NCBI GenBank assembly: GCA_003567685.1
Contig: PWYW01000054.1
Location: 1 to 32,730 of the forward strand
Reading direction: 5' to 3'
DNA: 32,730 nt
DNA from: Gammaproteobacteria bacterium
GTDB taxonomy: Bacteria > Pseudomonadota > Gammaproteobacteria > Xanthomonadales > Wenzhouxiangellaceae
Shown here one piece after another: positions 1,670 through 20,590 of this stretch. Below the pieces are notes generated by a model, which saw only the letters and a list, made by a program, of their open reading frames with translations, searched no databases and had not been told where the DNA came from. Position numbers and translations under genes: made by a program. The first letter of the stretch is position 1. Each line of letters begins with the position of its first letter.

Positions 1670-4114
1670 TTAACTGGCTTCGGCCAGGACCGGGCGTTGG
1701 TCTTCGACCTGGCCTGCCAGTTCTTCCGGCGTGAACTCGTCCACGGCAATCACCTTGGCGCTGAGTTCCTGGGCCAGGATCAGGTCGGCGGCCTGATCCT
1801 CGGTAATCACGCCAGCCTCCACGCCTTTGCGCGCCAGGGCCTTGACGTTGACCGGCGACGGTACAGCCTTGAAGGCATTGCGAATGGCATTTTCAGCCGG
1901 CTCGGCCTTCAGTACCGCATCAAAGGCCTGCAGAACAATGCCGGTACCATCGGCTTCTTTTGACTCGTAGACGCCAGCGACCAAGCGCTCGCGGCTGGCG
2001 GTCTTGCTCAGCAGCAAACGGGCGATCTTGTGACCGGTCTTGTCGTCGGCCACAGGGTGGCGGCGGCCAGTCGGGAAGCAAATCAGGCGCAGGACCCGGC
2101 CCAACAGCGGAATCGGGAAGTTGCGGTACACCGAATGCAGGGCTTCCTCCACCTGGTGCAGGCTGTCTTCAACGGCGAAGCGCAGCAGCGGCAGGTCTTC
2201 CTCGGGCCGACCATCGTCTTCGAATCGACGCAGCGTGGCCGAGGCCATGAACAGGTGTGCCAGGGCATCGGCAAATCGGCCGGAAAGCTTCTCGGCGAAC
2301 TTGAACTTGCCGCCGAGAATCAGCAGCGCCAGGTCAGCCGTCAAGGTAAAGGCCGAGGTCAGGCGATTCACGCGGCGGTAATAACGGGCGCTGGGTCCCG
2401 ATACCGGGCTCTGGCTGAGCAGACCACCGGTCAGGCCCAGCAGCGGCGCGCGCACGCCGTTGCTGATCAGGAAGCCGACGTGGGCCCACAATGCCGTGTC
2501 AAAGGCGGCCAGGTCATTGTCCTGGGCGGCCAGCATTTCCTTCAGCAGGTAGGGGTGGCAGCGAATGGCGCCCTGACCGAACACGATCATCGAACGGGTA
2601 AGGATGTTGGCGCCTTCCACGGTGATTGATACGGGCAGCGCCTGATAACCCATCGACAGGTAGTTGCCCGGGCCTTCAACCACGGCTTTGCCGCCGTGCA
2701 CGTCCATGGCATCGTTGATGACCCTGCGGTTGGCTTCGGTCAAATAGGCTTTCAGGATGGCCGACAGCACCACCGGCTTGTCGCCACGGTCGAGGGCGCT
2801 CATGGTCAGCTTGTGGGCGGCCTCCATGCGATAGGCTTCACCACCAATCCGGGCCAGCGGCTCCTCAATGCCTTCGAAGTGGCCAATCGGCTGCTTGAAC
2901 TGGTAACGGATCCGGGCGTAGGCGCCGGTAAGCAGGCTGGCCATTTTGCCGCCGGCCACGCCCTGCGCGGGCAGGGAAATGGCACGTCCCGCTGCCAGGC
3001 AATGCATCAGCATGCTCCAGCCCTGGCCGATACGATCCTGGCCGCCAATCACCCAGTCCATCGGGATGAACACATCCTTGCCGCGGGTCGGGCCATTCAT
3101 GAACAGGCTGCCACCGGGCAGGTGGCGGTTGCCGATTTCCACGCCTTCGGTGCTGGTCGGGATCAGCGCGCAGCTGATGCCCAGGTGTTCCTTGCCGCCC
3201 AGCAGGCCATCCGGGTCGCGGGTCTTGAAGGCCAGGCCCAGCACCGTGGCCACCGGGGCCAGGGTGATATAGCGCTTGTCCCAACTTACGCGAAGGCCAA
3301 GGACTTCCTTGCCATCGATGACTTCCTTGCAGACAACGCCCTCGTCGGGCATGGAGGCGGCGTCCGAGCCGGCCATCGGTGAGGTGAGTGCGAAGCAGGG
3401 AACCTCTTCACCGCGGGCCAGGCGCGGCAGGTAATGATCTTTCTGGGCGTCGGTGCCAAAGTGCATCAGCAACTCGCCGGGGCCGAGCGAGTTCGGCACC
3501 ATGATCGACACTGCCGCAGTCAGGCTGCGAGTGGAAATCTTGGTGACCACGGCCGCGTTGCCCTGGGAGGTGAAATCAAGACCGCCGTATTCCTTCGGGA
3601 TGATCATGCTCAGGAAACGCTGGTCCTTGATGTACTGCCAAACCTCCGGCGGAAGATCCTTGAGTTCGCGGTTGATCTGCCAGTCATCGAGCATGGCGCA
3701 AAGCTCTTCAACAGGTCCGTCAATGAACGCCTGCTCTTCCTCGGTCAACGTTGGCTTGGGCATGTCAAAAAGGACTTTCCAGTCCGGCTTGCCGGAAAAC
3801 AGTTCCGCGTCCCACCACACGGTGCCGGCATCCAGCGCTTCCTTTTCGGTGGCCGACATGGCGGGCAGCACGCCTTTGAACCAGTTAAACAGCGGGCGTG
3901 ACAAGACCGCACGGCGTAACGGCTTGACCGCCATGAAGACCAGGGCCACGGTTGAGGCGATCAACACCACCTCGAGGGCCAGGGCCACGGGCAGCGCAGC
4001 CAGGCTAAGCGCCGTGAGACCGCCGGCAAAAGCGGCAAACAGCCAGGCAGGCGACCGGAACCACGCCAGGGCGGCCAGACCAATCAGGAAAATCAGTAAA
4101 AGTGACAGAGTCAT
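1670..4114 (-). CDS. fadE: FadE-type acyl-CoA dehydrogenase
   Basis: 814 residues, the same length as E. coli FadE. Catalyses the first, FAD-dependent step of beta-oxidation (acyl-CoA to trans-2-enoyl-CoA). Two hydrophobic stretches (about residues 1-25 and 30-62) suggest membrane association, as expected for this long subfamily. The acyl-CoA dehydrogenase core begins near residue 80 and contains FALTSPMAGSDA (substrate/FAD loop), IIPKEYGGLDF and the DVHGGKAVVEGPGNYL segment. The long C-terminal extension after the core also matches the FadE subfamily. Its ATG overlaps the stop of the TetR regulator gene (ATGA, 4111-4114), so the two genes are translationally coupled and probably co-regulated by fatty-acyl ligands. 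Confidence 0.95.
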   Translation of the reverse strand: MTLSLLLIFLIGLAALAWFRSPAWLFAAFAGGLTALSLAALPVALALEVVLIASTVALVFMAVKPLRRAVLSRPLFNWFKGVLPAMSATEKEALDAGTVWWDAELFSGKPDWKVLFDMPKPTLTEEEQAFIDGPVEELCAMLDDWQINRELKDLPPEVWQYIKDQRFLSMIIPKEYGGLDFTSQGNAAVVTKISTRSLTAAVSIMVPNSLGPGELLMHFGTDAQKDHYLPRLARGEEVPCFALTSPMAGSDAASMPDEGVVCKEVIDGKEVLGLRVSWDKRYITLAPVATVLGLAFKTRDPDGLLGGKEHLGISCALIPTSTEGVEIGNRHLPGGSLFMNGPTRGKDVFIPMDWVIGGQDRIGQGWSMLMHCLAAGRAISLPAQGVAGGKMASLLTGAYARIRYQFKQPIGHFEGIEEPLARIGGEAYRMEAAHKLTMSALDRGDKPVVLSAILKAYLTEANRRVINDAMDVHGGKAVVEGPGNYLSMGYQALPVSITVEGANILTRSMIVFGQGAIRCHPYLLKEMLAAQDNDLAAFDTALWAHVGFLISNGVRAPLLGLTGGLLSQSPVSGPSARYYRRVNRLTSAFTLTADLALLILGGKFKFAEKLSGRFADALAHLFMASATLRRFEDDGRPEEDLPLLRFAVEDSLHQVEEALHSVYRNFPIPLLGRVLRLICFPTGRRHPVADDKTGHKIARLLLSKTASRERLVAGVYESKEADGTGIVLQAFDAVLKAEPAENAIRNAFKAVPSPVNVKALARKGVEAGVITEDQAADLILAQELSAKVIAVDEFTPEELAGQVEDQRPVLAEAS

Positions 4115-4785
4115 CGAACAATCTCCAAGGTGCCTTTTGCACCGACTTGGTTTGCGGTTTGTAAAGAAGGGTGGGGCAGGCTGCCGAGGCCGGCAGCGGA
4201 AAAACGAACCAGATCGTCAGCGATCTGGCCTGGGTCATCGTGTCCGGACTCGGCCATCGTGTGGGTCAGTGCGCCGACGATGAAGTCGAGCTGGCGACGA
4301 ATCCGGTCCGGACAGTGATCGGGCAATGTTTCGGCGATGGCCGCGGCGAAGCGACGCATGACATGGGCGTATTCGCTACTGAGTGCGGCATGCAGATCGG
4401 CATCCTGATCGGCGAAGGCCCGCAACAAGATCCGCATGAATCGGTGGCCGGTTTCATCCGAAGCGTGGGTGAACACAATGGCCGGACGGACAAAGGCGTC
4501 CAGAACGGCTTCCAGGGCCGGTGGTGCGTCGCTGGCCAGCAGTTCGTCCAAACGAGCCAGGCGCGCGCTGTTCAGCGCATCCAGCCGCCGCTTGAAGACG
4601 GCAACAATCAGTGCCTGCTTGGAGCCAAAGTGGTAATTGACGGCGGCCAGGTTGACCTCGGCATCCTGGGTGATCTGACGCAACGACGTGGCGTGGAAGC
4701 CGTTTTCAGCAAACAGACGTTCGGCCACATCCAGAATGCGGTCCACCGTTCCCGTGCTTTGTGTCGCCAAATGGCTCAATTTCAA
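4111..4785 (-). CDS. psrA: TetR-family regulator, PsrA-like
   Basis: 224 residues. The N-terminal helix-turn-helix domain (VDRILDVAERLFAENGF, then TSLRQITQDAEVNLAAVNYH and FGSKQAL, about residues 14-60) closely resembles Pseudomonas PsrA, a TetR repressor of beta-oxidation genes released by long-chain fatty acids. The C-terminal half is a helical ligand domain (FMRILLRAFADQ, IVGALTHTMAESG). The listed start is a TTG at 4785; a GTG at 4746, just before the conserved VDRILD, is an alternative that would lose 13 residues. The stop overlaps the fadE start by 4 bases. A CAAAC-N4-GTTTG palindrome lies 10 bases upstream of the TTG, consistent with autoregulation of the whole operon. The family assignment is firm; the PsrA orthology rests on domain likeness, the operator and the fad context. 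Confidence 0.85.
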   Translation of the reverse strand: MKLSHLATQSTGTVDRILDVAERLFAENGFHATSLRQITQDAEVNLAAVNYHFGSKQALIVAVFKRRLDALNSARLARLDELLASDAPPALEAVLDAFVRPAIVFTHASDETGHRFMRILLRAFADQDADLHAALSSEYAHVMRRFAAAIAETLPDHCPDRIRRQLDFIVGALTHTMAESGHDDPGQIADDLVRFSAAGLGSLPHPSLQTANQVGAKGTLEIVR

Positions 4786-4794
4786 ACGCCTGAT

Positions 4795-4810
4795 TCAAAC
4801 AGATGTTTGA
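4795..4810. promoter_or_regulatory. PsrA-type operator upstream of the regulator-fadE operon
   Basis: The sequence TCAAACagatGTTTGA is a perfect 6+6 palindrome with a 4-base spacer. It fits the published Pseudomonas PsrA box form, G/C-AAAC-N2-4-GTTT-G/C. An extra half site TCAAAC occurs at 4782-4787, overlapping the proposed TTG start. Its position directly before the first gene argues for negative autoregulation relieved by acyl ligands. Binding by this regulator is inferred. Confidence 0.7.
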
Positions 4811-4865
4811 TAATACTCCCATACGCACCCGTATGCAACGTGAAGGCGCGATCGCCGTCAGTCCT

Positions 4866-5387
4866 TCAAATGCACTCTTCAGCATCGGAAAGTGTGGCCA
4901 CTCGCACCCGGCCGGGGTTGGAAACCACCACCGCCCGGCCGGCGGCACGCGCGTCTTGCCGGCAAACGCGAATGGTCAGGTTTGTGCCGTAGGCGGCACC
5001 GCCGGGTTGAAAGCGCACCCGTGTCCGGCCGCCCGATAGCATTTGCAGGTCGGCCGCCGGGCCAACCGCTCTCAGGATGTCGGCGTCACTGCCTGGCTGG
5101 CCGCTGCGGTTCGGGTCGCGGAATACGATGAACCCCTGGTGCCACTGATTGTCCTGGCTGCAGCGTTGCTGGTCTACGCTCGGACAGGCCGAGACAAATT
5201 CGCCCCGCATCACGGCCTCCTGGCGCGCATAATTCAAGTGGCCCACCAGGCCATTCGATGAAGCAACGATCCGGTTGCGTTCAATCAAGGTGGCCAGTCC
5301 GGGGGTCGTCAGGCTCACGACCACCGCCATGACGGCAAGGACAATCAGCAGTTCGACGAGACTGAGCCCGCGTGTTCGAGAGCCCAT
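4866..5387 (-). CDS. fimT: FimT/GspH-family type IV pilin-like minor pseudopilin
   Basis: 173 residues. Residues 4-25 form a type III prepilin signal: basic RTRG, cleavage after glycine, then LSLVELLIVLAVMAVVVSL with the conserved glutamate at mature position 5. The remainder matches the GspH/FimT beta domain (LNYARQEAVMRGEFVSACPS, then a paired-cysteine region CSQDNQWHQGFIVFRDPNR) and ends in a late cysteine (EECI). Expected role: minor pilin of a type IV pilus, inserted in the inner membrane and processed by prepilin peptidase. A strong ribosome site GGAGG (5394-5398) sits 6 bases before the ATG. No other pilin gene (fimU, pilV/W/X/Y1/E) adjoins it, so it is an orphan. FimT homologues have been linked to DNA binding in natural transformation in other gammaproteobacteria; that role here is untested. 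Confidence 0.85.
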   Translation of the reverse strand: MGSRTRGLSLVELLIVLAVMAVVVSLTTPGLATLIERNRIVASSNGLVGHLNYARQEAVMRGEFVSACPSVDQQRCSQDNQWHQGFIVFRDPNRSGQPGSDADILRAVGPAADLQMLSGGRTRVRFQPGGAAYGTNLTIRVCRQDARAAGRAVVVSNPGRVRVATLSDAEECI

Positions 5388-5652
5388 GTTTTTCCTCCAT
5401 TTTCCGTTCGCGACGGTGTAGGATTCTCGTGCGGGTGGTTGATGCCTGGCATGCGCCCCTTGCTTACCCTGGCCTAGGAAAAAAGAACCTCGTCAAGAAG
5501 GAATTCCACGATCCCCTGGTTCAACGACCCGGACAGCGGGAGACTGCGACTTCCGAGTCTGTCCGGCAAGCGCATTTCCGGTTCACGGTCGTTTCACCGC
5601 CCCGGCGTGTAATAGCGGCGTCTCACGTTTATCAGAGCACCAAAAATCTCGC
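5388..5652. other. Intergenic region between divergent fimT and desaturase genes, with a bulged inverted repeat
   Basis: 265 bases without a credible gene. It must hold the promoters of fimT (minus) and the lipid operon (plus). An inverted repeat CCGGACAG/CTGTCCGG at 5529-5536 and 5559-5566, with inner AGACT/AGTCT (5541-5545, 5556-5560), could fold into a bulged hairpin in the leader of the lipid operon. I found no convincing sigma-70 or ECF-type -35/-10 pair. The desaturase ATG lacks a clear Shine-Dalgarno sequence. Confidence 0.5.
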
Positions 5653-6576
5653 ATGAGTTTGAAGCAAGCAGTCAAGTCGTGGGTTCGATCCGACACCCCC
5701 GCCAACCTGTCGGATGCCAACCCGGAACGTATCGATTGGCTTCGCATCCTTCCCTTCATTGGCCTGCACCTGGCTTGCCTGGGTGTGTTCTTTGTCGGCG
5801 TGTCCTGGGTGGCGGTCGTTGTCTGCCTGGCCAGCTACCTGTTGCGGATGTTTGCCATCACGGCGTTTTACCATCGGTATTTTTCCCATCGAACCTTCAA
5901 GACCTCTCGGCCTCTACAGTTCTTTTTCGCGCTGATTGGCGCCAGCGCTACCCAGCGTGGCCCGCTGTGGTGGGCCGCCCACCACCGTCACCACCACAAG
6001 GTGTCCGATCGTCCCGAAGACCCGCACAGCCCGAGACACGGGTTCTTGTGGAGTCACATGGGCTGGTTTCTGAGTCGCAAGCATTTCGAAACGGACCTGA
6101 AACAGATTCCCGACCTGGCCAAGTATCCTGAGCTTCGTTGGCTCGACCGCCACGATCTGGCCGTTCCGGTTGCCTACGCGGCGGCACTGTTCGGGCTGGG
6201 TGCCTTGTTCGAGTGGCTGGCACCCGGACTTGGAACGAACGCCTGGCAACTGCTGGTCTGGGGTTACTTCATCTCGACCGTTGCCCTGATCCATGCCACG
6301 CTGACCATCAATTCCCTGTCCCATGTCTGGGGCAAGCGCCGTTACAACACGCGCGATGACAGCCGCAACAACTGGTTTCTTGCCTTGATCACCCTCGGCG
6401 AGGGATGGCACAACAACCACCATCACTATCCCGGTTCAGCCCGCCAGGGGTTTTACTGGTGGGAAGTCGACGTGAGCTATTACGTGCTCCGGGCCATGAG
6501 CCTGTTCGGGCTGGTGTCGGACCTCAAACCGGTGCCTGATGCGATCCGGCGCGCTCGTCGCATCGAGGCCAGCTGA
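5653..6576 (+). CDS. Membrane fatty-acid (acyl-CoA/acyl-lipid delta-9 type) desaturase
   Basis: 307 residues. All three histidine boxes of the di-iron membrane desaturases are present: HRYFSH (74-79), HHRHHH (110-115) and HNNHH (253-257). Four hydrophobic segments (about 33-69 as a pair, 88-103, 171-190, 198-220) fit the integral-membrane fold. Predicted reaction: O2-dependent introduction of a cis double bond into a saturated acyl chain, probably at carbon 9. It opens the lipid-modification operon; its TGA overlaps the next ATG by one base (TGATG). In context it would supply the double bond on which the two CFA-synthase-like methyltransferases downstream could act. That functional link is inference; the enzyme class is clear. 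Confidence 0.92.
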   Translation: MSLKQAVKSWVRSDTPANLSDANPERIDWLRILPFIGLHLACLGVFFVGVSWVAVVVCLASYLLRMFAITAFYHRYFSHRTFKTSRPLQFFFALIGASATQRGPLWWAAHHRHHHKVSDRPEDPHSPRHGFLWSHMGWFLSRKHFETDLKQIPDLAKYPELRWLDRHDLAVPVAYAAALFGLGALFEWLAPGLGTNAWQLLVWGYFISTVALIHATLTINSLSHVWGKRRYNTRDDSRNNWFLALITLGEGWHNNHHHYPGSARQGFYWWEVDVSYYVLRAMSLFGLVSDLKPVPDAIRRARRIEAS

Positions 6577-7817
6577 TGAAGATTGCGATTGTCGGCGCGG
6601 GTGTAGCCGGTCTGTATGCCGCCTGGCACCTGAGTCAGCAGCATGAAGTTGTCGTGTTTGAAGCCGATCATCGGCTGGGCGGCCACGCTGATACCCACCT
6701 GATCGAAGGCGACGGCGAGCCGATTCCGGTCGATTCAGGGTTCATCGTTTTCAACGAAGGCCACTATCCGCTGTTCAGCGAGTGGCTTCGGCAAATGGGG
6801 GTTGCCTGGAAGGATTCGGACATGAGCTTTGCGGTCTCCGACCCGGCCAGCGGAATCGAGTACAACGCGACCAACCTCAATCGCCTGTTCTGCCAGCGAT
6901 CCAACCTTTTCCGGCCACGTTTCCTGGGCATGGTGCGAGACATCATTCGCTTCTACAAGCAGGCACCGTCGCTGCTGGCATCACTTGATGATCGACTGAC
7001 CCTCGGTGACTGGCTTGATCAAAGCGGGCTCGGAAAAACCTTCTCTGAATTGCATTTGCTGCCGATGGCTTCGGCTCTCTGGTCGGCCCCGATGGGTCAG
7101 ATTCGTGACTTCCCGATGCGCCACCTGCTGGCCTTCATGGATAACCACGCAATGCTTCAGCTCAGCGACCGGCCGACCTGGCGGACCGTGAGTGGTGGCA
7201 GCCGGGCCTACGTTGAACAAGCCAGCCAGTGCGCTGCCGATTTTCGCCTCGGCAATCCGGTACACGGTGTCCAACGGCTTGATGACGGTGTCCGGCTGAC
7301 GACGGACTCTGGTGAACTGCAGGCTGACTGCGTCATTCTGGCCTGCCACTCGGATCAGGCCCTGCGCATGCTGGTCGATGCCGACGAGCTGGAACGCAGC
7401 GTCCTCGGGTCAATTGCCTATCAGCCGAATGAAACGGTATTGCATACCGACATATCGGTATTGCCCGCCTTGCCAGCCGCGCGGGCCAGCTGGAACGTCA
7501 GGCGCGACCCGCGCGATGCCGAGCAGTGCCGTGTGTCGTATTACATGAACAAGCTGCAGGGAATCCAGTCCTCGACGGACTATATCGTCTCGCTGAACCA
7601 GACCGACCTGATTGACCCCGACAAGATCCTGGTCAAGCGCCAGTATCACCACCCGGTGTTTACGCCGGAAGCCATCCTGGCGCAGCGTCGCTGGGCAGAA
7701 ATCAATGGCCAGCGGCGAACGTGGTTCTGCGGTGCCTGGTGGGGCTGGGGCTTCCATGAGGACGGCGTTCGCAGCGCGCGGCAAGTCATCGATCACCTGG
7801 CCGGGCAGAATGGATAA
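6576..7817 (+). CDS. FAD-dependent amine-oxidase-like oxidoreductase (COG2907)
   Basis: 413 residues. Starts with MKIAIVGAGVAGLYAAWHLS and continues to EVVVFEADHRLGGHADT: the GxGxxG dinucleotide-binding loop, the ribose-binding acidic residue and the GG doublet of the flavin amine oxidase/phytoene desaturase superfamily. The C-terminal FAD motif region (RTWFCGAWWGWGFHEDGVRS) is also present. COG2907 members typically sit beside DUF1365 and CFA-synthase-like genes, exactly as here. In Rhodobacter sphaeroides, related genes in this kind of neighbourhood take part in furan fatty acid formation, so a redox step on a methylated acyl chain is the best guess; the exact substrate is unknown. Overlaps the desaturase stop by 1 base and the DUF1365 start by 8 bases. 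Confidence 0.88.
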   Translation: MKIAIVGAGVAGLYAAWHLSQQHEVVVFEADHRLGGHADTHLIEGDGEPIPVDSGFIVFNEGHYPLFSEWLRQMGVAWKDSDMSFAVSDPASGIEYNATNLNRLFCQRSNLFRPRFLGMVRDIIRFYKQAPSLLASLDDRLTLGDWLDQSGLGKTFSELHLLPMASALWSAPMGQIRDFPMRHLLAFMDNHAMLQLSDRPTWRTVSGGSRAYVEQASQCAADFRLGNPVHGVQRLDDGVRLTTDSGELQADCVILACHSDQALRMLVDADELERSVLGSIAYQPNETVLHTDISVLPALPAARASWNVRRDPRDAEQCRVSYYMNKLQGIQSSTDYIVSLNQTDLIDPDKILVKRQYHHPVFTPEAILAQRRWAEINGQRRTWFCGAWWGWGFHEDGVRSARQVIDHLAGQNG

Positions 7818-10420: not shown

Positions 10421-11446
10421 ATGAATTCGATTGACCTGGCCGAAAAAGGGTTGGCCCCCGACGTGGCGATCCGTCTTGGCATTCGCCGCCTGTTGCGCAA
10501 GCGTTTGCGCCAGGAGTTTGCGCACGACCCGGAACGGTCGTCAGCACGAACCCAGGCGCTGATGGATGAATTGGCCGAATCGGCCATTGCCATCGAAACC
10601 GATGCCGCCAACGAGCAACACTACGAAGTGCCTGCCGGGTTCTACCAGATTGCCCTGGGCCAGCACCTGAAGTACTCCAGCGGCTTCTGGCCGCGCGGTG
10701 TTGAAACCCTGGACCAGGCCGAAGCGGCCATGCTGCAAGCCAGCTGCGAACACGCCGAGTTGGCCGACGGCCAGAAAGTCCTGGAACTCGGCTGTGGCTG
10801 GGGGTCGCTCAGCCTGTGGATGGCCGAACGCTACCCCAACAGCCAGATCACCTCGGTGTCGAACTCGGCTTCGCAGCGTGCCTTCATCGAATCGCAGGCG
10901 ATCGAGCGTGGTTTGCACAACCTCAAGGTCATCACCTGCGACGTGAACGAGCTCGATCTGGACGACCGTTTCGACCGTGTGGTTTCAGTGGAAATGTTTG
11001 AACACGTGCGCAACTACCGCGTGCTGCTCAGCCGCATTGCTGGCTGGCTGAACCCGGGCGGCAAATTGTTCGTGCATATTTTTTGCCATCGGTACATTGC
11101 CTATCCCTTCGAAACCGAGGGCGAAGACAACTGGATGGGGCGATATTTCTTCACGGGTGGCCTGATGCCGGCCGCCGACACCCTGTTGCACTTCCAGGAT
11201 GACCTGAAACTGGAAAACCGCAAGCTCTATTCCGGCGTTCATTACGCCCGCACGGCGCGCGCATGGCTGGACAACGTCGATGCCCGCAAGGTCCAATGCC
11301 GCCAGGTGATGAGCGAAATCTATGGTGAACACTCGGATGTCTGGCTGCAGCGCTGGCGGATGTTCTTCATGGCCTGCGAGGAACTGTTTGGCTATGACCA
11401 GGGCAACGAATGGATGGTCGCTCACTATCGCTTCCAGCGACGTTAG
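10421..11446 (+). CDS. CFA-synthase-like SAM-dependent methyltransferase (second, divergent copy)
   Basis: 341 residues. SAM site VLELGCGWGSLSLWMAERYP near residue 115, with HYEVPAGFYQIALG before it and VVSVEMFEHVRNY after it. This resembles the branch of the CFA superfamily that includes plant coclaurine N-methyltransferase-like proteins and their bacterial relatives, shorter than true CFA synthase and with a distinct C-terminus (FFMACEELFGYDQGNEWMVA HYRF split across the end). It starts 18 bases after the DUF2878 stop. Two unlike CFA-type methyltransferases in one operon suggests two chemically separate methyl transfers or two substrates. Substrate identity is unknown. Confidence 0.85.
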   Translation: MNSIDLAEKGLAPDVAIRLGIRRLLRKRLRQEFAHDPERSSARTQALMDELAESAIAIETDAANEQHYEVPAGFYQIALGQHLKYSSGFWPRGVETLDQAEAAMLQASCEHAELADGQKVLELGCGWGSLSLWMAERYPNSQITSVSNSASQRAFIESQAIERGLHNLKVITCDVNELDLDDRFDRVVSVEMFEHVRNYRVLLSRIAGWLNPGGKLFVHIFCHRYIAYPFETEGEDNWMGRYFFTGGLMPAADTLLHFQDDLKLENRKLYSGVHYARTARAWLDNVDARKVQCRQVMSEIYGEHSDVWLQRWRMFFMACEELFGYDQGNEWMVAHYRFQRR

Positions 11447-11461
11447 GGGTATGCTCACCCA

Positions 11462-12784
11462 GTGAGTTATCTGAACCGGTTCTTGAGGGGTGGTCTGAAC
11501 AGCAAACTGGTGCGCGTTTTCGTGCTCCAGGTGCTGGCCATCAGCGCCGCGACGGTGCTGGGCGTCTTCGGCGCCGCGCTGGTCGTGGAACGCGTGCTGG
11601 TGCAGGAAGCACTCAACGGTGAAGCGGATCATTTCTGGGCAAATTACTCGGTCAACCCCGAATTCCCCCTGCCCAACACCAATAACCTTCGCGGTTACAT
11701 GGCTCAACGGGTCGATTTCAGCCAGGTTCCCGATTGCCTGGTCAACCAGCCACCGGGTTTTCGCAGGGTTGTCTGCGGCGACGATGCAAGGCCGGTTGTT
11801 CATATCTCCGATCGCGGCGCCGATCGACTTTACCTGGTCTTCGATGAAGTGCAGGTATCGGCGCTGGCGTTTTACTTCGGTATTGCCCCGTTGACCGGTG
11901 TCTTGCTGCTCATCTACATCCTGACCTGGCTGGGCTATGTCTTATCACGCCGGGCGGTGTCGCGAGTGATTCGTCTTTCCGAGGCCGTTCGCAATTACGA
12001 TTTCAACGCCGGCAAGTTCGACAAGATCGACCAGGATGACGACACTGCCTCGGATTTCGAGGTCGATACCCTGGTCTCCGCGTTCAATCAGTTCATCGAC
12101 CGCATGGAGTCGTTCATCGAGCGCGAGCGCACCTTCACCCGCAACGCCAGCCATGAACTGCGCACGCCGCTGGCGGTGGTCAAGGCAAACCTGAACCTGT
12201 TGGCCAAGTTCGATGACCCCAGCCGACGTCAACGGGTGATCGAGCGCATGTCCCGGACAGTGACGGACATGGAGGCGCTGGTGGAAACCTTGTTGATCCT
12301 GGCGCGAGAGAGCGAATCAAAACTGTCCTGGTCCCTGGTGCTTATCAACGATCTGATTGCCGAAATCTGCGACCAGGTCCGACGGGCGGTGCCCCGCGAA
12401 AACGTTGAATTGAGCATACGCGCAACCGGCCTGGTGGAAATTGAAGCGCCGGAGCGGGTGGTCGCCATCGTATTCACCAACCTGATCCGCAACGCCATGA
12501 CCTACACCGAAAGCGGCAAGGTCGAAATCGTCATCGAATCGAACCGTGTCATGGTCAAGGACACCGGTGTCGGCATGAGCGAATCGGACCTCGAACGGAT
12601 GTTCGAACCGTTTTACCGCGGTCATGACCGCAGCAACGAGGGCTATGGCCTGGGAATGGCCATCGTTCGCCGCCTGTGCGATCGCTTCGGGTGGGTGCTC
12701 GAGGCCGACAGCGAGCTGGGTGTTGGCACCGAAATCCGCGTGCTTTTCACCAGCACGCGTTTCCAGCGTTTCGCGGAGAAATGA
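11462..12784 (+). CDS. Membrane sensor histidine kinase, orphan
   Basis: 440 residues from GTG 11462, 15 bases after the methyltransferase stop, with AGGGG at 11446-11450 as a possible ribosome site. Layout: cytoplasmic start, membrane helix about 19-42, a periplasmic sensor of about 90 residues holding two cysteines (C92, C105), membrane helix about 133-161, HAMP-like linker, HisKA with FTRNASHELRTPLAVV (phosphorylated H231), then HATPase_c with N box NLIRNAM (340-346), G1 DTGVGM (367-372), F box FEPFYRG and G2 GYGLGMA (404-410). All catalytic motifs are intact. No response regulator gene is beside it; its place at the end of the lipid operon suggests that it senses envelope or lipid state. 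The OmpR-type regulator at 32198 is a conceivable but unproven partner. Confidence 0.93.
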   Translation: MSYLNRFLRGGLNSKLVRVFVLQVLAISAATVLGVFGAALVVERVLVQEALNGEADHFWANYSVNPEFPLPNTNNLRGYMAQRVDFSQVPDCLVNQPPGFRRVVCGDDARPVVHISDRGADRLYLVFDEVQVSALAFYFGIAPLTGVLLLIYILTWLGYVLSRRAVSRVIRLSEAVRNYDFNAGKFDKIDQDDDTASDFEVDTLVSAFNQFIDRMESFIERERTFTRNASHELRTPLAVVKANLNLLAKFDDPSRRQRVIERMSRTVTDMEALVETLLILARESESKLSWSLVLINDLIAEICDQVRRAVPRENVELSIRATGLVEIEAPERVVAIVFTNLIRNAMTYTESGKVEIVIESNRVMVKDTGVGMSESDLERMFEPFYRGHDRSNEGYGLGMAIVRRLCDRFGWVLEADSELGVGTEIRVLFTSTRFQRFAEK

Positions 12785-12860: not shown

Positions 12861-13838
12861 ATGAAACCTTCTGCCGCCACAGCCAGGGCCGGCGCCAACA
12901 TTGCTTTGGTCAAATACTGGGGCAAGCGGGATCCGGTTCTCAACCTGCCGGCCGCCGGTTCGCTCTCGCTCACGCTGGATCAGTTGGAAACCACGACCAC
13001 CGTGGTGCCGGACGAAACCCTATCTGCCGATACCCTGGCGTTGAATGGCCAGGCAGCCGATGTCAGTCGCGTCAGTGCCGTTCTCGACCGGTTTCGCCGA
13101 CAGTCTGGCCATGCCGTGTTCTGCCGGGTTGAAAGCAACAACAACTTCCCGACCGGTGCCGGCCTGGCCTCATCCGCATCGGCGTTTGCCGCACTGGTCG
13201 CCGCGGCCGATTCAGCCTTTGCCACTCGGCTTGACGACCGTGCGCTGTCGGAGCAGGCCCGGCTGGGGTCGGGTTCGGCCGCTCGCTCGATCTTTGGCGG
13301 GTTCGTGGAAATGGCGGTCGGCACACGGCCCGACGGTAGCGATGCCGTCGCTCGTCCCCTGCTGTCTGCAGAAGCGTGGCCGCTGGAAGTTGTCGTGGCG
13401 GTTGTCGACGAAGCCAGCAAGGCGGTTTCATCCACGAAAGGCATGAACCAAACCCAGGCCACCTCGCCGTACTATCCGGCCTGGCTTGGCCAGGTGCCTG
13501 AAGACCTTCAGGCTGCCCGCTCGGCCATCGCCGCGCGCGATTTTGAAGCGCTGGCCCGGGTGGGCGAGGGGAGTGCCCTGGCCATGCACGCCTCGGCGCT
13601 GGCGGCCCGGCCCGGCCTGATCTACTGGCGGCCCGCCACGCTCGCCCTGATTGATGCGGTGCGTGACCTTCAGTCCGCTGGCGTGGCGGCCTTCTTTACC
13701 ATTGATGCCGGGCCGCAGGTCAAGGTGGTGTGTCTGCCCGAGGCGGGCCAGCGGGTTGCTGCCGCGTTGTCGGCTATCGATGGCGTCCAGCGACTGATTC
13801 ATTGTCGCCTGGGCCCGGGCGTGCGGGTGCTGGGGTGA
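12861..13838 (+). CDS. mvaD: Diphosphomevalonate decarboxylase
   Basis: 325 residues, the normal bacterial length. Converts 5-diphosphomevalonate with ATP to isopentenyl diphosphate, releasing CO2. GHMP-family motifs specific to this enzyme are present: ANIALVKYWGKRD (12-24), FPTGAGLASSASA (96-108), GSGSAARSIFGGF (137-149), MNQTQATSPYY (196-206) and TIDAGPQVK (281-289) carrying the catalytic aspartate D283. It is the first gene of the mevalonate unit, 76 bases after the histidine kinase, so it may have its own promoter; TAGTAT near 12816 could be a -10 element but no good -35 is visible. Its TGA overlaps the GTG of the kinase gene that follows. Confidence 0.96.
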   Translation: MKPSAATARAGANIALVKYWGKRDPVLNLPAAGSLSLTLDQLETTTTVVPDETLSADTLALNGQAADVSRVSAVLDRFRRQSGHAVFCRVESNNNFPTGAGLASSASAFAALVAAADSAFATRLDDRALSEQARLGSGSAARSIFGGFVEMAVGTRPDGSDAVARPLLSAEAWPLEVVVAVVDEASKAVSSTKGMNQTQATSPYYPAWLGQVPEDLQAARSAIAARDFEALARVGEGSALAMHASALAARPGLIYWRPATLALIDAVRDLQSAGVAAFFTIDAGPQVKVVCLPEAGQRVAAALSAIDGVQRLIHCRLGPGVRVLG

Positions 13839-14944
13839 GGTTGCTCTGGTCGCGAGCCCCGGGCAAGGCGGTGCTGGTCGGTGAATACGCAGTGCTGGAT
13901 GGCGCAACGGCACTGGCCATGGCGGTTGACCGCTATGCCCGTATCGAATTGACTGCCTGCCGGCCCTCGGCTTGCCACCTGGTTTCCCCGCAACTCAGTC
14001 ACCAGGCCCTGCCGTTCCGGCAGCAAGCGGACGGCACCATCGAGTGGGCACAAGATCATGCCGCCTATTCCGTGCTTCGTCAGACCACGCAGTGGCTGTC
14101 CAGCCTGCACCAGCAGCTTTTCGATCGCTTTGGTCCCTTGCCGCCTTTTCGACTGCGTGTCGATACCGCCGATCTGTTCATTCAATTGCCGCCGGGTTCT
14201 CCCGGTTCCGGGGTCAGCAAGCTCGGGCTTGGCTCCAGTTCGGCCGTGACCGTGGCCCTGGATGCCGCGCTGCGGCAATGGGTCAATGCGTCGGATGTTG
14301 GCGGTCTTGACCTGCGCGCCCTGGACCGGCTGATGCAGCCCTATCGCCGTGGCCAGGGCGGGCAGGGCAGCGGTATCGACGTGGTCAGCGCACTGTGTGG
14401 CGGCCTGCTTCGGTTCAGTCGCGAGGGCAGCGAGATCGACGCCCAGCGTCGCCGCTTGCCGGAAGGCCTGCAGCTCCTGTTCGTTTGGACGGGCCAGAGC
14501 ACTTCGACGCCCGAACTGCTGGCCCGCTTCCGCGACTGGCAGAACCAGTCGCCGACTGCAGCCAGTCGCCTTCTTGACGAGATGGGCCAATGCAGCGAGG
14601 CTGCCGACCGCGCCACCGTGGCCGACGATGCCGATGCGCTGCAAGCCTGTCTGCATCGTTACGGCGGCCTCATGAGTACAATGGGCGACGCGATGGGAGC
14701 GCCAATTTGCGGCGGCGTGCACGCCGAATTGCGCGCCCGGGCCGAGCAGCTTGGCCTGGCCAGCAAGCCCAGCGGCGCCGGCGTCGGTGATCTGAGCCTG
14801 ATCGCCGGTGTGGATCGGCAGGCCATTGGCCAAATGACCGATTGGCTGGAGGAACGCAACCTGACCATACTGCCGTTGGGGCTGGACGTGGACGGTGTAC
14901 AAACGGGTCTGATCGACCCAGAGGCGGCCGGACGGCCGGAGTAA
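13835..14944 (+). CDS. mvaK2: Phosphomevalonate kinase (GHMP family)
   Basis: 369 residues from GTG 13835 (GTGA overlap with mvaD). Motifs: APGKAVLVGEYAVLDG (8-23), SKLGLGSSSAVTVALDAAL around 128-146 (ATP-binding glycine/serine loop), GGQGSGIDVVSALCGG (175-190) and KPSGAGVGDLSLIA (311-324). The combination EYAVLDG plus GQGSGIDV is typical of phosphomevalonate kinases, and the neighbours require this step: 5-phosphomevalonate + ATP to 5-diphosphomevalonate. The mevalonate kinase activity is accounted for by the next gene. A cytosolic enzyme; stop is 8 bases before the HMG-CoA reductase fusion start. Confidence 0.93.
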   Translation: MRLLWSRAPGKAVLVGEYAVLDGATALAMAVDRYARIELTACRPSACHLVSPQLSHQALPFRQQADGTIEWAQDHAAYSVLRQTTQWLSSLHQQLFDRFGPLPPFRLRVDTADLFIQLPPGSPGSGVSKLGLGSSSAVTVALDAALRQWVNASDVGGLDLRALDRLMQPYRRGQGGQGSGIDVVSALCGGLLRFSREGSEIDAQRRRLPEGLQLLFVWTGQSTSTPELLARFRDWQNQSPTAASRLLDEMGQCSEAADRATVADDADALQACLHRYGGLMSTMGDAMGAPICGGVHAELRARAEQLGLASKPSGAGVGDLSLIAGVDRQAIGQMTDWLEERNLTILPLGLDVDGVQTGLIDPEAAGRPE

Positions 14945-14952
14945 GCCACATC

Positions 14953-17211
14953 ATGGAACGATCAAGAATCCCCCATTTTTACAAGATGTCCGTTTCCGAA
15001 CGGGTACGCACGGTACGCGATCGTGGCCTGCTGGGCGCCGAAGACTGCCAGAACCTGCAGTCGGGCAATCACACGCTGTCGGTGCAGCTTGCCGACAAGA
15101 TGATCGAAAACGTCATCGGCGTCATGGGCTTGCCGGTCGGTCTGGGCCTCAATTTCCAGATCAACGGCAAGGATTACGTCGTACCGCTGGTGGTCGAGGA
15201 GCCATCCATCGTTGCTGCACTCAGCTCGGCGGCCAAGCTTGCCCGGCAGACCGGCGGCTTCGATGTCGAAAGCCAGGACCCGCGCCTGATCGGACAAATC
15301 CAGATTGTCGACGTGCCGCAGCCGGAGCGGGCCAAGGCCCTGTTGCTGCAGCGCAAGTCCGAAATCCTCAACCTGGCCAACAGCCTGCATCCGAAAATGA
15401 TTGCCCGCGGCGGCGGTGCCAAGGATCTGGAAGTCTTTATTCATCCCTCCAAGGGCCCCGGCGGCACCATGGTGGTCGTTCACCTGCTGGTGGACACCTG
15501 CGATGCGATGGGCGCCAACCTCGTCAACACCATGTGCGAAGGCGTGGCCTCGATGGTCGAGAACATCGCCGAGGGCCGCGTCTTCCTGCGCATCCTGTCC
15601 AACCTGACCGATCGCGCCCTGGTCCGGGCTCGCGTGCGCATTCCCACCCAAATGCTGGCCGCCAAGGGTTTTGATGGCGAGCAGGTCCGCGACGGCATCA
15701 TCGTGGCCAACGACTTTGCTCGCGTCGACCCCTACCGGGCGGCTACCCACAACAAGGGCATCATGAACGGCATTGATGCCGTCTGCCTGGCCACCGGCAA
15801 CGACTGGCGCGCCATCGAGGCCGGTGCCCACGCCTTTGCCGCGCGCGGCGGGCGCTACACCTCGCTGACGCGCTGGGAAAAGGCCGACAACGGCGACCTG
15901 CTCGGCGAGCTGGAAATTCCGATCAAGGTCGGCACCGTGGGCGGGCCGCTGCAAACCAACCCGACCGTGGCCCTGAACCTGCGCCTGCTGGGCGTGGAAT
16001 CGGCCCGCGAACTGGCCGAAGTGATGGGCGCAGTGGGCCTGGCCCAGAATTTCTCGGCCATTCGCGCGCTGGTTACCGAAGGCATCCAGCAGGGCCACAT
16101 GACCTTGCACGCGCGCAGCGTGGCCACCGCCGCCGGCGTGCCGCCAGAACTGTTCGACACCGTGGTCGAGCGATTGATCGCCTCCGGCGAGATCAAGATC
16201 TGGAAAGCCGAAGAACTGATGCGCACCGTCGACAGCCAGGCCCACGTCGGCCCGTCGACGCAGGAAATGGACAGCCTCGAAGGCGAGGCGCTGGGCGCCG
16301 GCCACGGCAAGATCATCCTGCTGGGTGAGCACGCCGTGGTGTATGGCCGTCGAGCCATTGCCGTGCCCATTCCGCTGGCCATCCAGGCGCGCATCGAAGA
16401 CACCCGCGAAGGCGTCGAGCTGATCATCCCGCGCTGGGGCGTGGAACAGCGGGTGGATTTCAACGCCAAGCGCCCGGCCTCGTTCACCCGCTCGCTGGCC
16501 AGCCTGATTGAAGAGCTGGGCCTGGCCGGCCGCGGCATGCGCATCGAAATCTTCCCCAACGTGCCACGCGCCATGGGCCTGGGCGGCTCGGCCGCGCTGG
16601 CCGTGGCGGTCATCCGGGCGATGAACCTGCATTTCCACCTTGGGCTGGACGACGAGCGGGTCAACGCGCTGGCCTACGAGTGCGAAAAGGTCGCCCACGG
16701 CACGCCGTCCGGCCTGGACAACACCCTGGCCACCTGGGGCAAGCCGTTTTTGTTCAGGGCCGGCGAGTCCCCCCTGCGCCAGGTGATCGAGGTGCCCGAG
16801 CCGCTGCCCATTGTCATTGGCATGAGCGGAGTGGAAAGCCTGACCGCGCGCACCGTTGCCCGGGTGCGCGAGGCCTGGCAGCGCAACCAGCCCTTGTATG
16901 AACGCCTGTTCGACGAGGTGGATTTGCTGGTCGACCAGGGGCTGGCAGCCCTTGGCAAGAGTGATTACGCCACCCTTGGCGAACTGATGAACGTTTGCCA
17001 GGGCCTGCTGAATGCCATGCAAGTCTCCAGTTCCGAGCTGGAAGCGTTGATCCAGGTGGCGCGCAAGCACGGCGCCCTGGGAGCCAAGCTGACTGGTGGC
17101 GGCGGCGGTGGATCCATCATTGCCCTGTGCCCCGATAACAGTGCGGCGGTGGCGCAGGCCATTCGCGAAGCCGGTTTCCATGCCCTGGAGGTCACCATTG
17201 GCGGCGACTAA
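14953..17211 (+). CDS. Bifunctional HMG-CoA reductase (class II)-mevalonate kinase fusion
   Basis: 752 residues in one uninterrupted frame from ATG 14953 (GGAG 11 bases upstream; longer starts would overlap the previous gene). Residues 1-428 are a class II HMG-CoA reductase: VPLVVEEPS with E83, THNKGIMNGID with K268, TGNDWRAIEAGAHAF with D284 and EGIQQGHMTLHARS with H382/H386, matching the catalytic Glu, Lys, Asp and His of the Pseudomonas mevalonii enzyme at nearly the same numbering. After a linker of about 20 residues, 449-752 form a full mevalonate kinase: GHGKIILLGEHAVVYG (450-465), PRAMGLGGSAALAVA (538-552), HGTPSGLDN (582-590, D589) and KLTGGGGGGSIIAL (712-725). The protein would take HMG-CoA to mevalonate and then to 5-phosphomevalonate. 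One oddity: the usual GLGSS of the kinase loop is GLGGS. HMG-CoA synthase and thiolase are not in the window. Confidence 0.95.
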   Translation: MERSRIPHFYKMSVSERVRTVRDRGLLGAEDCQNLQSGNHTLSVQLADKMIENVIGVMGLPVGLGLNFQINGKDYVVPLVVEEPSIVAALSSAAKLARQTGGFDVESQDPRLIGQIQIVDVPQPERAKALLLQRKSEILNLANSLHPKMIARGGGAKDLEVFIHPSKGPGGTMVVVHLLVDTCDAMGANLVNTMCEGVASMVENIAEGRVFLRILSNLTDRALVRARVRIPTQMLAAKGFDGEQVRDGIIVANDFARVDPYRAATHNKGIMNGIDAVCLATGNDWRAIEAGAHAFAARGGRYTSLTRWEKADNGDLLGELEIPIKVGTVGGPLQTNPTVALNLRLLGVESARELAEVMGAVGLAQNFSAIRALVTEGIQQGHMTLHARSVATAAGVPPELFDTVVERLIASGEIKIWKAEELMRTVDSQAHVGPSTQEMDSLEGEALGAGHGKIILLGEHAVVYGRRAIAVPIPLAIQARIEDTREGVELIIPRWGVEQRVDFNAKRPASFTRSLASLIEELGLAGRGMRIEIFPNVPRAMGLGGSAALAVAVIRAMNLHFHLGLDDERVNALAYECEKVAHGTPSGLDNTLATWGKPFLFRAGESPLRQVIEVPEPLPIVIGMSGVESLTARTVARVREAWQRNQPLYERLFDEVDLLVDQGLAALGKSDYATLGELMNVCQGLLNAMQVSSSELEALIQVARKHGALGAKLTGGGGGGSIIALCPDNSAAVAQAIREAGFHALEVTIGGD

Positions 17212-17794
17212 GCAAGCCGGCGAAGCGCGAGTCGTTTCGTCCGATGCCGAATCCCTGATCCTGGTTGATGAGCATGACCGGGAACTGGGCATACTGTCCA
17301 AGGGCGAATGCCACGATGGTGACGGCCTTCTTCATAGAGCCTTTTCCGTTTTCCTGTTTGACGAAAAAGGACGGTTGCTCATTCAGCAGCGCGCCGCTGG
17401 CAAGCGCCTGTGGCCGGGCTACTGGGCCAACAGCTGCTGTTCGCACCCGCGCGCCGGCGAAGACATGGCCGAAGCCACCCAGCGCCGCATCGAGGAAGAG
17501 CTGGGCTTGCGCGTCGAGCTGGAATTCATTTACAAGTTCCGCTACCAGGCCCGTTACAGCGAGGAAGGCAGTGAACACGAGCTGTGCTGGGTTCACCTCG
17601 GCCGCATCCGCTCCAGCCAGCCGCGGCCCAACCCGTCGGAAATTGCCGACTGGAAATTCCTTAGCGCCAGCGAAATCGACACGCTGATGACTACCCCCGA
17701 TGCGCCGGTCGCCCCGTGGTTTCGGATGGAGTGGACCACATTGCGTACCCGCCATGCCGAGCGCCTGGCCGCCTATCAGGTGAATCTTGATTAA
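17198..17794 (+). CDS. idi: Isopentenyl-diphosphate delta-isomerase, type I (Nudix)
   Basis: 198 residues from TTG 17198. This start is chosen because GGAGG (17187-17191) stands 6 bases before it; an in-frame ATG at 17180 has no such site and would add only 6 residues. Both lie inside the kinase coding end, so the genes overlap by 14 bases or more. Motifs: LILVDEHDRELG, HRAFSVFLFDEKGRLLIQQR, WANSCCSHPRAGED with the catalytic cysteine, the Nudix-like helix AEATQRRIEEELG and the metal/catalytic acid segment EEGSEHELCWVH. Interconverts IPP and DMAPP, completing the supply of both isoprenoid C5 units from mevalonate. Type I is Mg2+/Zn2+ dependent and flavin-free. Confidence 0.94.
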   Translation: MAATKQAGEARVVSSDAESLILVDEHDRELGILSKGECHDGDGLLHRAFSVFLFDEKGRLLIQQRAAGKRLWPGYWANSCCSHPRAGEDMAEATQRRIEEELGLRVELEFIYKFRYQARYSEEGSEHELCWVHLGRIRSSQPRPNPSEIADWKFLSASEIDTLMTTPDAPVAPWFRMEWTTLRTRHAERLAAYQVNLD

Positions 17795-17821
17795 GGATTG
17801 CGAAATCCGTCACAATGCGGC

Positions 17822-20590
17822 ATGGCCGAGCCTACGCCTTCTACCCTGGAACTCGAACGAATTCGTGCCTTGCGCCAGACCGGGCTGGTCAACAACCGAA
17901 GCGAAGCGCGCTTTGACCGACTGACGCGGCTGGCCCAGCAGGTACTCCAGGCACCCATCTCGGTCATCTCGCTCATTGATGAGCATCGGCAGTGGTTCAA
18001 GTCGTCGCAAGGGCTCGATCCCGGGGAATCCGAACGCTCGGCGTCGTTCTGCCGATACACCATCGACCAGGACGAAATCTTCGAGGTTACGGATGCCCGC
18101 GAGGACCCTCGATTCGCCAATCACGCGCTCGTCCAGGGCAAACCCTTCCTGCGTTTTTATGCCGGTGCGCCGCTGAGGTCTCGCGATGGGCACCGGATTG
18201 GCACCTTGTCCATTCTCTCGGACACGCCTCGCACCCTGTCGGCCGAGGAACGAAACCTGCTGCGCGACCTTGCCGAGTCGGTGGAGTCGGAAATCAACCA
18301 CCAAGATTCCGAAGTTCAGCAGGAGGCCTTGCAGTTCGCCCAGGCGCTTGGACACGCCATCAGCAATGCCCAGGCACATTTCATTCGGGATGTGCATCGC
18401 AAATCGGCCTTCGAGGCACTGCTGGCCGATCTGCTCGACTTGACCGGCAGTGAGATGGGCTTTATCGGGGAAGTGCTTTTCGGCAAGGATCAATCCCCGG
18501 AACTGCACTTGATTGCCTTCAGTTGCCGGACGCAACGCGAATCCGTCCAGCAATTCTTTGACCGGTACGCCGGGCAGCAGCTGGTGCTGTCCAACCCGAA
18601 CTCACTGATTTCCCAATCAATTGCCAGGGGCGAATCGCTGGTCACTGGCAACCCGCAAACCCATCTGCGGCCCAACATCGTGCAACCACTTGGTCACCCG
18701 GAACTGAGCGCCTTCATGGGCGTGCCGGTTACCTATGGCGGCGAAGTGATTGCAATGTTCGGCCTGTCGAATCGGCCGGACGGCTATAACCTGGACCTCG
18801 TCGATCGTCTCAAGCCGCTCACCGATACCATTGGCCAATTGATCGATGCCGATCGCACCCGACGGCGACATCAGATGGCCCAGCTTGAGTTGGAGCGACT
18901 AAAGAGCTCGCTCGACCAGACCCTGGATTGCGTTTTCATGTTCGAGACGGGCGGCCTGAAAATCTTTTACGCCAACGACGGCGCCCTGAAGCTGGCCGGT
19001 CTTGATCGCGACGCCTTGTTCACCACCCGGGCCGACCAACTCATCGACCCAGCGCATCAAACAAAATTCCAGGAAACGATCAAGGCAATGTCGCAGTGCA
19101 CGGCACCGCCGAAAACCTTCGATACCCGGATCGTCAACGCCAGCGGTGCCATGGTTGCCGTTGAGGTCTTTCTCCAATGTTTCAAAAACCCGGGCCAGCC
19201 CACGCATTTTGTCGCCATCGTTCGCGATATCAGCGAGCGTCTCAAGCAGGAGGCCCGGCTGCGTTATCTGGCCACCCATGACAGCCTGACCAACCTGCCC
19301 AACCGTGCCTTGTTCCTGGACCGGCTCAGCGCCGGCATCGACGAGGCGCAGAGGCATGCTGCCGGCTTGTGTGTACTGCTGCTGGATCTTGATAATTTCA
19401 AGGTGGTCAACGACGGCTTTGGTCACCTCAATGGCGACCGCCTGTTGATTGAAGTGTCCTCTCGATTGAGCCGTGGTATTCGCAGCGGCGATATGGTGGC
19501 CCGCCTGGGGGGCGATGAATTTGCCGCGATCATCACCACCGCGGGCGACAACGATGAGGCGCTGATGGCCGCCGAACGACTGTTGAATCTCATCAGCCAG
19601 CCCGTGAATATCGAGAATGAGGAAATCATTCCAACTGCCAGCATTGGCTACTGCCTCTTCCCGGACGACGGGAGTGATTCGGAAACCCTGCTGCGCAATG
19701 CCGATTTGGCCATGTATCAAGCCAAGCGGTCTGGCCGCAACCAGATTCGTGCCTACAGCTCGGACATGGAGGAAAGTTCGCGCGAGCAATTGCATGTGCT
19801 TCAGCGCCTGCGCAGCGCCCTGGAAAACGACCAGCTCGAGCTGCATTACCAGCCACAGGTCAATGCGTTGACCGGAGAGATCATCGCGCTTGAAGCCTTG
19901 CTTCGTTGGCACGACGAGGTGCTGGGCGTGATGCCCCCCGACCGTTTCATCCCCATTGCCGAATCCTCCGGCCTGATTCTGCCGCTGGGCCGCTGGGTAT
20001 TCGAGCAGGTGTGCAAGCAGGTCGCGCGATGGCATTACCAGGGTAGGTCGGTGCGCGTAGCCTTCAACCTGTCGCCGTTGCAGTTCCGCCAGCTCGATCT
20101 GGTGACCAACATCAAGAAAACCAGTGCCCGGTGTCGGTGTCCCGTGCATTTGCTCGAAATCGAGCTGACTGAAAGTGCCGCCATGCAGAGCCCCGAGTTT
20201 GCCAAGCAGCAGTTCGCCCGGCTGGCCGAAGCCGGGTTCTCAATCGCGCTGGACGATTTTGGTACCGGGCATTCATCACTGTCGCGGCTCGGCCGTCTCA
20301 AGGTGAACAAACTCAAAATCGACCAGAGTTTTGTCGACGAGGTCCCCGGCAACAAAATGCATGAAACGCTGGTGCGTACCACCATTGGTCTGGGCAAGGA
20401 GATGGGTTTGTCGCTGGTGGCCGAAGGGGTGGAAACCGAGGCTCAGAAGGACTTTCTGGTGCAGCACGGTTGCCATGTGTACCAGGGCTGGCTGTTCAGC
20501 CCGGCGGTCACGGTCAGCGAGTTTGAATCGAGGCTGGCCAATGGCGACTGGACACTGGCCGACGACTGCCGCCCCGCCAAGGGCCTCTGA
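17822..20590 (+). CDS. GAF-GAF-PAS-GGDEF-EAL cyclic-di-GMP signalling protein
   Basis: 922 residues from ATG 17822; a TTG at 17798 is possible but abuts its AAGGA with no spacing. Order: GAF (about 18-165, with SLIDEHRQWFKSSQG and RFYAGAPL), second GAF (about 190-345), PAS (about 360-475), GGDEF domain with intact GGDEF at 563-567 and an inhibitory I-site RSGD five residues before it, and an EAL domain with EALLRW at 691, FNLSPLQFRQ, EIELTES, ALDDFGTGHSSLSR, LKIDQSFV and AEGVETEAQ. Both diguanylate cyclase and phosphodiesterase residues look complete. No membrane helices, so a cytosolic sensor with tandem GAF domains. It begins 27 bases after idi and may be read through from the mevalonate unit. 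Its stop is 4 bases from the convergent ftsX stop. Confidence 0.92.
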   Translation: MAEPTPSTLELERIRALRQTGLVNNRSEARFDRLTRLAQQVLQAPISVISLIDEHRQWFKSSQGLDPGESERSASFCRYTIDQDEIFEVTDAREDPRFANHALVQGKPFLRFYAGAPLRSRDGHRIGTLSILSDTPRTLSAEERNLLRDLAESVESEINHQDSEVQQEALQFAQALGHAISNAQAHFIRDVHRKSAFEALLADLLDLTGSEMGFIGEVLFGKDQSPELHLIAFSCRTQRESVQQFFDRYAGQQLVLSNPNSLISQSIARGESLVTGNPQTHLRPNIVQPLGHPELSAFMGVPVTYGGEVIAMFGLSNRPDGYNLDLVDRLKPLTDTIGQLIDADRTRRRHQMAQLELERLKSSLDQTLDCVFMFETGGLKIFYANDGALKLAGLDRDALFTTRADQLIDPAHQTKFQETIKAMSQCTAPPKTFDTRIVNASGAMVAVEVFLQCFKNPGQPTHFVAIVRDISERLKQEARLRYLATHDSLTNLPNRALFLDRLSAGIDEAQRHAAGLCVLLLDLDNFKVVNDGFGHLNGDRLLIEVSSRLSRGIRSGDMVARLGGDEFAAIITTAGDNDEALMAAERLLNLISQPVNIENEEIIPTASIGYCLFPDDGSDSETLLRNADLAMYQAKRSGRNQIRAYSSDMEESSREQLHVLQRLRSALENDQLELHYQPQVNALTGEIIALEALLRWHDEVLGVMPPDRFIPIAESSGLILPLGRWVFEQVCKQVARWHYQGRSVRVAFNLSPLQFRQLDLVTNIKKTSARCRCPVHLLEIELTESAAMQSPEFAKQQFARLAEAGFSIALDDFGTGHSSLSRLGRLKVNKLKIDQSFVDEVPGNKMHETLVRTTIGLGKEMGLSLVAEGVETEAQKDFLVQHGCHVYQGWLFSPAVTVSEFESRLANGDWTLADDCRPAKGL

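Follow-up and report, generated by a model that had tools for sequence, protein, structure and literature searches.

A predicted HMG-CoA reductase-mevalonate kinase fusion protein in Wenzhouxiangella and other bacteria

We report a bacterial gene in which a class II HMG-CoA reductase (HMGR) and a mevalonate kinase (MK), two consecutive enzymes of the mevalonate pathway, are joined in one reading frame, and which in all likelihood encodes a single bifunctional HMGR-MK enzyme of isoprenoid biosynthesis. The fusion is real and widespread; both enzyme families are known, but their pairing is apparently undescribed.

Results

The fused gene was found in the window, by which we mean the whole 32,730-nucleotide stretch of DNA that was analysed; it is the entire contig 28 of a 2.74-Mb draft genome (107 contigs, 99.6% complete), and the nearest named relatives belong to Wenzhouxiangella. 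The gene sits in a mevalonate cluster whose members all lie on one strand:

12861..13838, + strand: diphosphomevalonate decarboxylase (TIGR01240, 295 bits against a cut-off of 171)
13835..14944, + strand: probable phosphomevalonate kinase (TIGR01220, 94 bits, below the cut-off of 166; GHMP_kinases_N; position in the cluster)
14953..17211, + strand: fused HMGR/MK gene, 752 amino acids (frame and profile matches)
14953..16230, + strand: class II HMGR part, residues 1-426 (Pfam match at 14-387, TIGR00532, phmmer match to 6dio over 4-426)
16231..16299, + strand: variable linker, about residues 427-449, borders approximate (conservation dip, length variation, low pLDDT)
16300..17208, + strand: MK part, residues 450-752 (TIGR00549 at 451-725; PDB matches 2hfs and 6mde)
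17198..17794, + strand: IPP isomerase, Nudix type, start codon uncertain (TIGR02150, 165 bits against a cut-off of 106)

The frame at 14953-17211 runs from an ATG to a TAA without a single internal stop. The original prediction of a full class II HMGR followed by a full MK in one continuous frame agrees with the identities returned by both profile collections. Pfam places HMG-CoA_red at residues 14-387 (E 3.6e-111), GHMP_kinases_N at 515-593 (E 6.6e-18) and GHMP_kinases_C at 665-741 (E 7.2e-15), and in NCBIfam the N-terminal half scores 415 bits with the HMGR model TIGR00532 (cut-off 260) and the C-terminal half 238 bits with the MK model TIGR00549 (cut-off 163; residues 451-725); neither scan found a thiolase domain in the fused protein. 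Among solved structures, phmmer aligned residues 4-426 with the Delftia reductase 6dio and the stretch up to residue 424 with the Pseudomonas mevalonii enzyme 1qax, while residues 448-729 matched the MK of Leishmania major (2hfs) and residues 450-742 that of Methanosarcina mazei (6mde). An antisense open frame of 779 amino acids spans the whole fused gene (window 14962-17301, - strand) and is probably a codon-usage shadow, since it is the sense frame that matches protein families.

The home genome is a draft in 107 contigs, which could make one suspect that two separate genes were joined in assembly. A pattern search of named genomes matched 466 stretches of DNA, 444 of which encode a relative of the fusion, and in 79 of the 80 loci kept as the best of those 444 the fusion is a single unbroken frame, isolates such as L034 and L049 included. 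The same joined frame is carried by genomes assembled as one contig (G019, G026, G027, G406 and G454), and an assembly artefact is thereby ruled out. The exception, L081 from Nevskia soli (5404-7677, + strand), breaks into two frames at about residue 135, through either a sequencing error or a broken gene.

A full-length fused match was present in 35 of the 61 relatives searched, the home genome counted. Within the genus it was full length in 26 of 30 genomes and cut by a contig end in one (G008); the three members without a match (G014, G020 and G021) are 65-84% complete, and all 15 members that are at least 90% complete carry the fusion. Across the order (299 genomes) the fusion was full length in 52 and partial in three, with an unfused HMGR relative only in two, and in an evenly drawn sample of the class (321 genomes) it was full length in seven and cut by a contig end in one; in a further 18 the matches were confined to unfused HMGR relatives or fragments, and the remaining genomes of that sample gave no match at E 1e-25. 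These counts overlap, as some assemblies occur both in the genome surveys and in the set of loci. The lineages represented among the 80 kept loci include Wenzhouxiangella, Dyella, Nevskia, Rhodanobacter, Dokdonella and Litchfieldella, and some assemblies carry the labels Acidobacteriota (Thermoanaerobaculia) or Calditrichota. Verrucomicrobia (L060, on a contig of 3.1 kb) and Marinobacter (L042) are represented by one record each, and in these two the label may be wrong or the assembly contaminated. The fusion is not a lone case, and constitutes a conserved family across many gammaproteobacterial lineages and some Acidobacteriota- or Calditrichota-labelled assemblies.

Conservation was assessed in an alignment of 80 rows, composed of the window and the 79 unbroken loci from the best 80 of the 444 relatives. 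The catalytic residues of both enzymes had been said to be visible in the sequence, and the ten active-site positions that we checked are invariant in all 80 aligned fused proteins: E83, K268, D284 and H382 in the reductase part, which we take to be the catalytic Glu, Lys, Asp and His of class II HMGR, and K453, E459, S546, E578, D589 and G715 in the kinase part, presumably the MK active-site Lys/Asp and the three GHMP motifs. The least conserved 20-residue block of the fusion is 421-440 (score 0.47), and the segment 424-449 ranges from 17 to 33 residues in length across the 80 rows. A structure model built from 42 aligned fused proteins had a mean pLDDT of 80.7 and a pTM of 0.49, with pLDDT below 50 at residues 41-58, 377-385 (the stretch that holds the catalytic His) and 431-444, and with Foldseek one part matched HMGR structures and the other MK structures. 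The protein thus has two well-formed enzymatic halves, and the linker between them is uncertain and probably flexible.

These features bear on how the two halves might work together. Besides being bifunctional, the enzyme might channel mevalonate directly between its reductase and kinase sites, as these catalyse successive steps and the fused frame has persisted across divergence down to 52% identity (L107). We consider this unlikely, however, because the linker varies in sequence and length and is modelled with low confidence, features more in keeping with a flexible tether than with a fixed tunnel, and because the pTM of 0.49 is too low to place the two parts relative to each other.

Conversely, proteolysis or internal translation could separate the halves, which would then act as independent proteins released by linker cleavage or made from an internal start. 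The linker is probably exposed in the model, and in G036 a stand-alone MK lies next to the fusion, evidence that a separate gene can encode the kinase; yet a Met at any place between residues 426 and 452 occurs in only 17 of the 80 rows. A conserved internal ATG for a separate kinase is consequently unsupported (ATG alone was scored as a start), and we regard separate halves as very improbable. The extra MK gene of G036 (L190, G036:C4:91000-100000, positions 2967-3926, - strand) comes directly after the fusion, and the C-terminal half of its product is near-identical to that of the adjacent fused kinase, as after duplication with gene conversion.

The genes beside the fusion place the predicted bifunctional enzyme in isoprenoid biosynthesis. 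In the window the probable phosphomevalonate kinase gene has a GTG start that, as read from the sequence, overlaps the stop of the decarboxylase gene. Around the fusion in the best 80 of the 444 relatives, IPP isomerase was found in 79 loci, phosphomevalonate kinase in 76 and the decarboxylase in 70, counts in which short contigs were scored as misses. The arrangement varies in places: the decarboxylase of L075 lies apart from the cluster on the opposite strand, a squalene/phytoene synthase gene stands between phosphomevalonate kinase and the fusion in L047 (2390-3532) and L087 (about 4776-5942), and gaps separate the same two genes in L065 and L077. Just 5' of the cluster, the window encodes a cyclopropane-fatty-acid-synthase-like methyltransferase (10421-11446, + strand) and a histidine kinase (11462-12784, + strand), and just 3' of it a large signalling protein with two GAF domains and PAS, GGDEF and EAL domains (17798-20590, + strand).

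The dxr gene of the MEP pathway was not found in the home genome, nor in any of the 25 genus genomes searched (21 with the full fusion, one with a cut fusion and three without). Among 16 other genomes of the order it was absent from both fusion-bearing ones and present in the other 14, one of which (G052) gave a partial match below the cut-off. In a second, chosen set, which overlaps the first, dxr was absent from 29 of 33 fusion-bearing genomes (G099, G454, G504 and G544 retain it) and present in all five fusion-negative ones. With dxr mostly missing, the mevalonate cluster that holds the fusion is in most but not all cases the sole visible route to IPP.

The reductase half might alternatively depend on NADH and serve catabolism, as P. 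mevalonii-type enzymes do, and run towards HMG-CoA, with the kinase half incidental. Its best solved relatives are indeed the P. mevalonii and Delftia enzymes, and the title of NCBIfam model TIGR00532 calls the family degradative. The gene nevertheless lies within a biosynthetic cluster, dxr is mostly absent, and residue 146 is His in 79 of the 80 rows and Gln in one, hence acidic in none, whereas phmmer alignments place Asp at this position in three solved HMGR relatives. In the Ruegeria pomeroyi HMGR, according to the accessible part of the source, Asp154 decides cofactor use, and a Lys mutant takes both NADH and NADPH (PMC12292504). Position 146 of the fusion would correspond to Asp154, as reckoned from the pairing of E83 with E91, and from the His found there we infer that the fused enzymes, unlike the catabolic ones, are not strictly NADH-dependent. 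A catabolic role is disfavoured on all three counts, and we hold it to be very improbable.

The cluster leaves the source of HMG-CoA to be explained. The HMG-CoA synthase Pfam family was not found in the home genome by a search that was positive in archaeal and lactic controls and in 11 of 25 congeners. A congener synthase, which itself scores 340 bits with TIGR01835, just below the cut-off of 360, was then used as a query: 13 of 30 congeners had clear orthologues, and the home genome and 16 more had none. Restricted to the 15 congeners that are at least 90% complete, the synthase was present in seven and missing from eight, among them the home genome and the one-contig genomes G019 and G027. 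What remained were weak hits of 28-34% identity over about 150 residues, which resemble FabH-type synthases. Another, divergent type of synthase occurs in L067 (HMG_CoA_synt_N 49.7 bits, HMG_CoA_synt_C 26.2 bits) and was sought in 20 chosen genomes, including 12 of the 17 synthase-negative congeners; five other genomes gave strong matches and G018 a weak one that came from its own synthase, and none of the 14 genomes without the first type matched, which speaks against a hidden synthase of the L067 type in those 14. When mapped on a tree of 28 fused proteins, synthase presence required eight changes, and 82 and 102 of 500 shuffles were as low; a single loss of the gene is not borne out, as there is no clear clustering. 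With so patchy a pattern, gaps in the drafts may account for some of the absences.

Leucine is converted to HMG-CoA through methylcrotonyl-CoA carboxylase and methylglutaconyl-CoA hydratase; HMG-CoA lyase running in reverse is unlikely energetically as a source of HMG-CoA. The genus Wenzhouxiangella includes protein-degrading predators. All nine genomes tested (six without and three with the synthase) have at least one long carboxyltransferase gene, which in the home genome and G019 adjoins an enoyl-CoA hydratase and a biotin carboxylase with a methylcrotonyl-CoA carboxylase alpha BT domain. In the same two genomes an HMG-CoA lyase lies beside a thiolase; the loci in question are L187 and L219 in the home genome and L188 and L220 in relatives. 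Irrespective of the fusion, HMG-CoA lyase gave a match in 40 of the 41 genomes searched, and 37 of these scored above the cut-off.

Since the synthase is missing and leucine-degradation genes are present, we tentatively propose that leucine feeds the pathway: in synthase-less Wenzhouxiangella, HMG-CoA could come from leucine breakdown alone, with the fused HMGR-MK committing this branch point to isoprenoids. The odds lie somewhat against this proposal, and they are lowered by the near-universal occurrence of HMG-CoA lyase, which would drain the pool. The carboxylase also occurs in synthase-bearing genomes, so these genes do not set the synthase-negative genomes apart; the eight changes on the tree, synthase genes perhaps missed in drafts and a possible unknown synthase also count against it.

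The ancestry of the fused reductase was examined in a tree of 32 fused HMGR domains (27 of the 79 unbroken loci, the window and L104-L107) and 17 unfused ones, with the fragments L108, L123 and L127 excluded. The fused HMGRs formed one side of a branch with support of 99/98 that was recovered in 100% of 200 bootstrap trees, although the unfused rows all come from one class and wider sampling could alter this single fused branch; the long branches L125 and L126 are unsurely placed. Within the fused branch, four Acidobacteriota rows clustered with a Chromatiales assembly, a pair of Calditrichota rows grouped with two gammaproteobacterial genomes, and such mixed-phylum groups suggest transfer of the cluster between phyla. 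Relatives of the kinase half among 349 genomes of the phylum numbered two, the home genome itself and one at 27% identity. The home genome has no second HMGR, its sole other match to the fusion being a weak one inside the phosphomevalonate kinase gene.

Discussion

Our results point to a biosynthetic enzyme that would carry out two consecutive steps. The N-terminal part is predicted to reduce HMG-CoA to mevalonate with two NAD(P)H, and the C-terminal part, which a flexible linker attaches after the C terminus of the reductase, to convert mevalonate and ATP to 5-phosphomevalonate; phosphomevalonate kinase, diphosphomevalonate decarboxylase and IPP isomerase from the adjacent genes would then finish the route to IPP and DMAPP. 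Such an arrangement would supply the two activities in a fixed 1:1 ratio, and prompt phosphorylation may pull the reversible reductase step forward.

A natural fusion of consecutive mevalonate enzymes offers ready parts for terpene engineering and a clean test of whether joining consecutive enzymes aids flux. It is also a marker by which transfer of the whole mevalonate cluster between phyla can be traced. The absence of HMG-CoA synthase makes the origin of HMG-CoA in such bacteria directly testable, and if the leucine route is true, the mevalonate pathway of these bacteria draws on an amino acid rather than on acetyl-CoA.

The original prediction knew of no described HMGR-MK fusion, and we likewise found no description of one in the open-access papers searched. 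It goes unmentioned in the available portion of PMC7691419, and a 2026 review of bacterial isoprenoid pathways, in the sections accessible, gives MvaE and IspDF as two-enzyme proteins (PMC13001223).

The reductase part resembles the class II HMGRs of P. mevalonii and Delftia acidovorans (1qax, 6dio) over its whole length, in its active-site residues and in fold, but those enzymes stand alone and have Asp at the position, 146, where 79 of the 80 fused proteins have His. Similarly, the MKs of L. major (2hfs) and M. mazei (6mde) are the best solved relatives of the kinase part and match it in fold; they too are stand-alone proteins, to which the kinase part is about 31-34% identical. The Enterococcus protein MvaE is, in the accessible text of the review, likewise a bacterial fusion containing a class II HMGR (PMC13001223). 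MvaE joins HMGR to acetoacetyl-CoA thiolase and not to the next enzyme of the pathway, whereas our fusion has no thiolase domain and carries MK instead, a difference that had been anticipated from the sequence and that holds. IspDF of the MEP pathway, described in the same part of that review, also unites isoprenoid enzymes in one chain (PMC13001223), but it belongs to the other pathway and its steps are non-consecutive.
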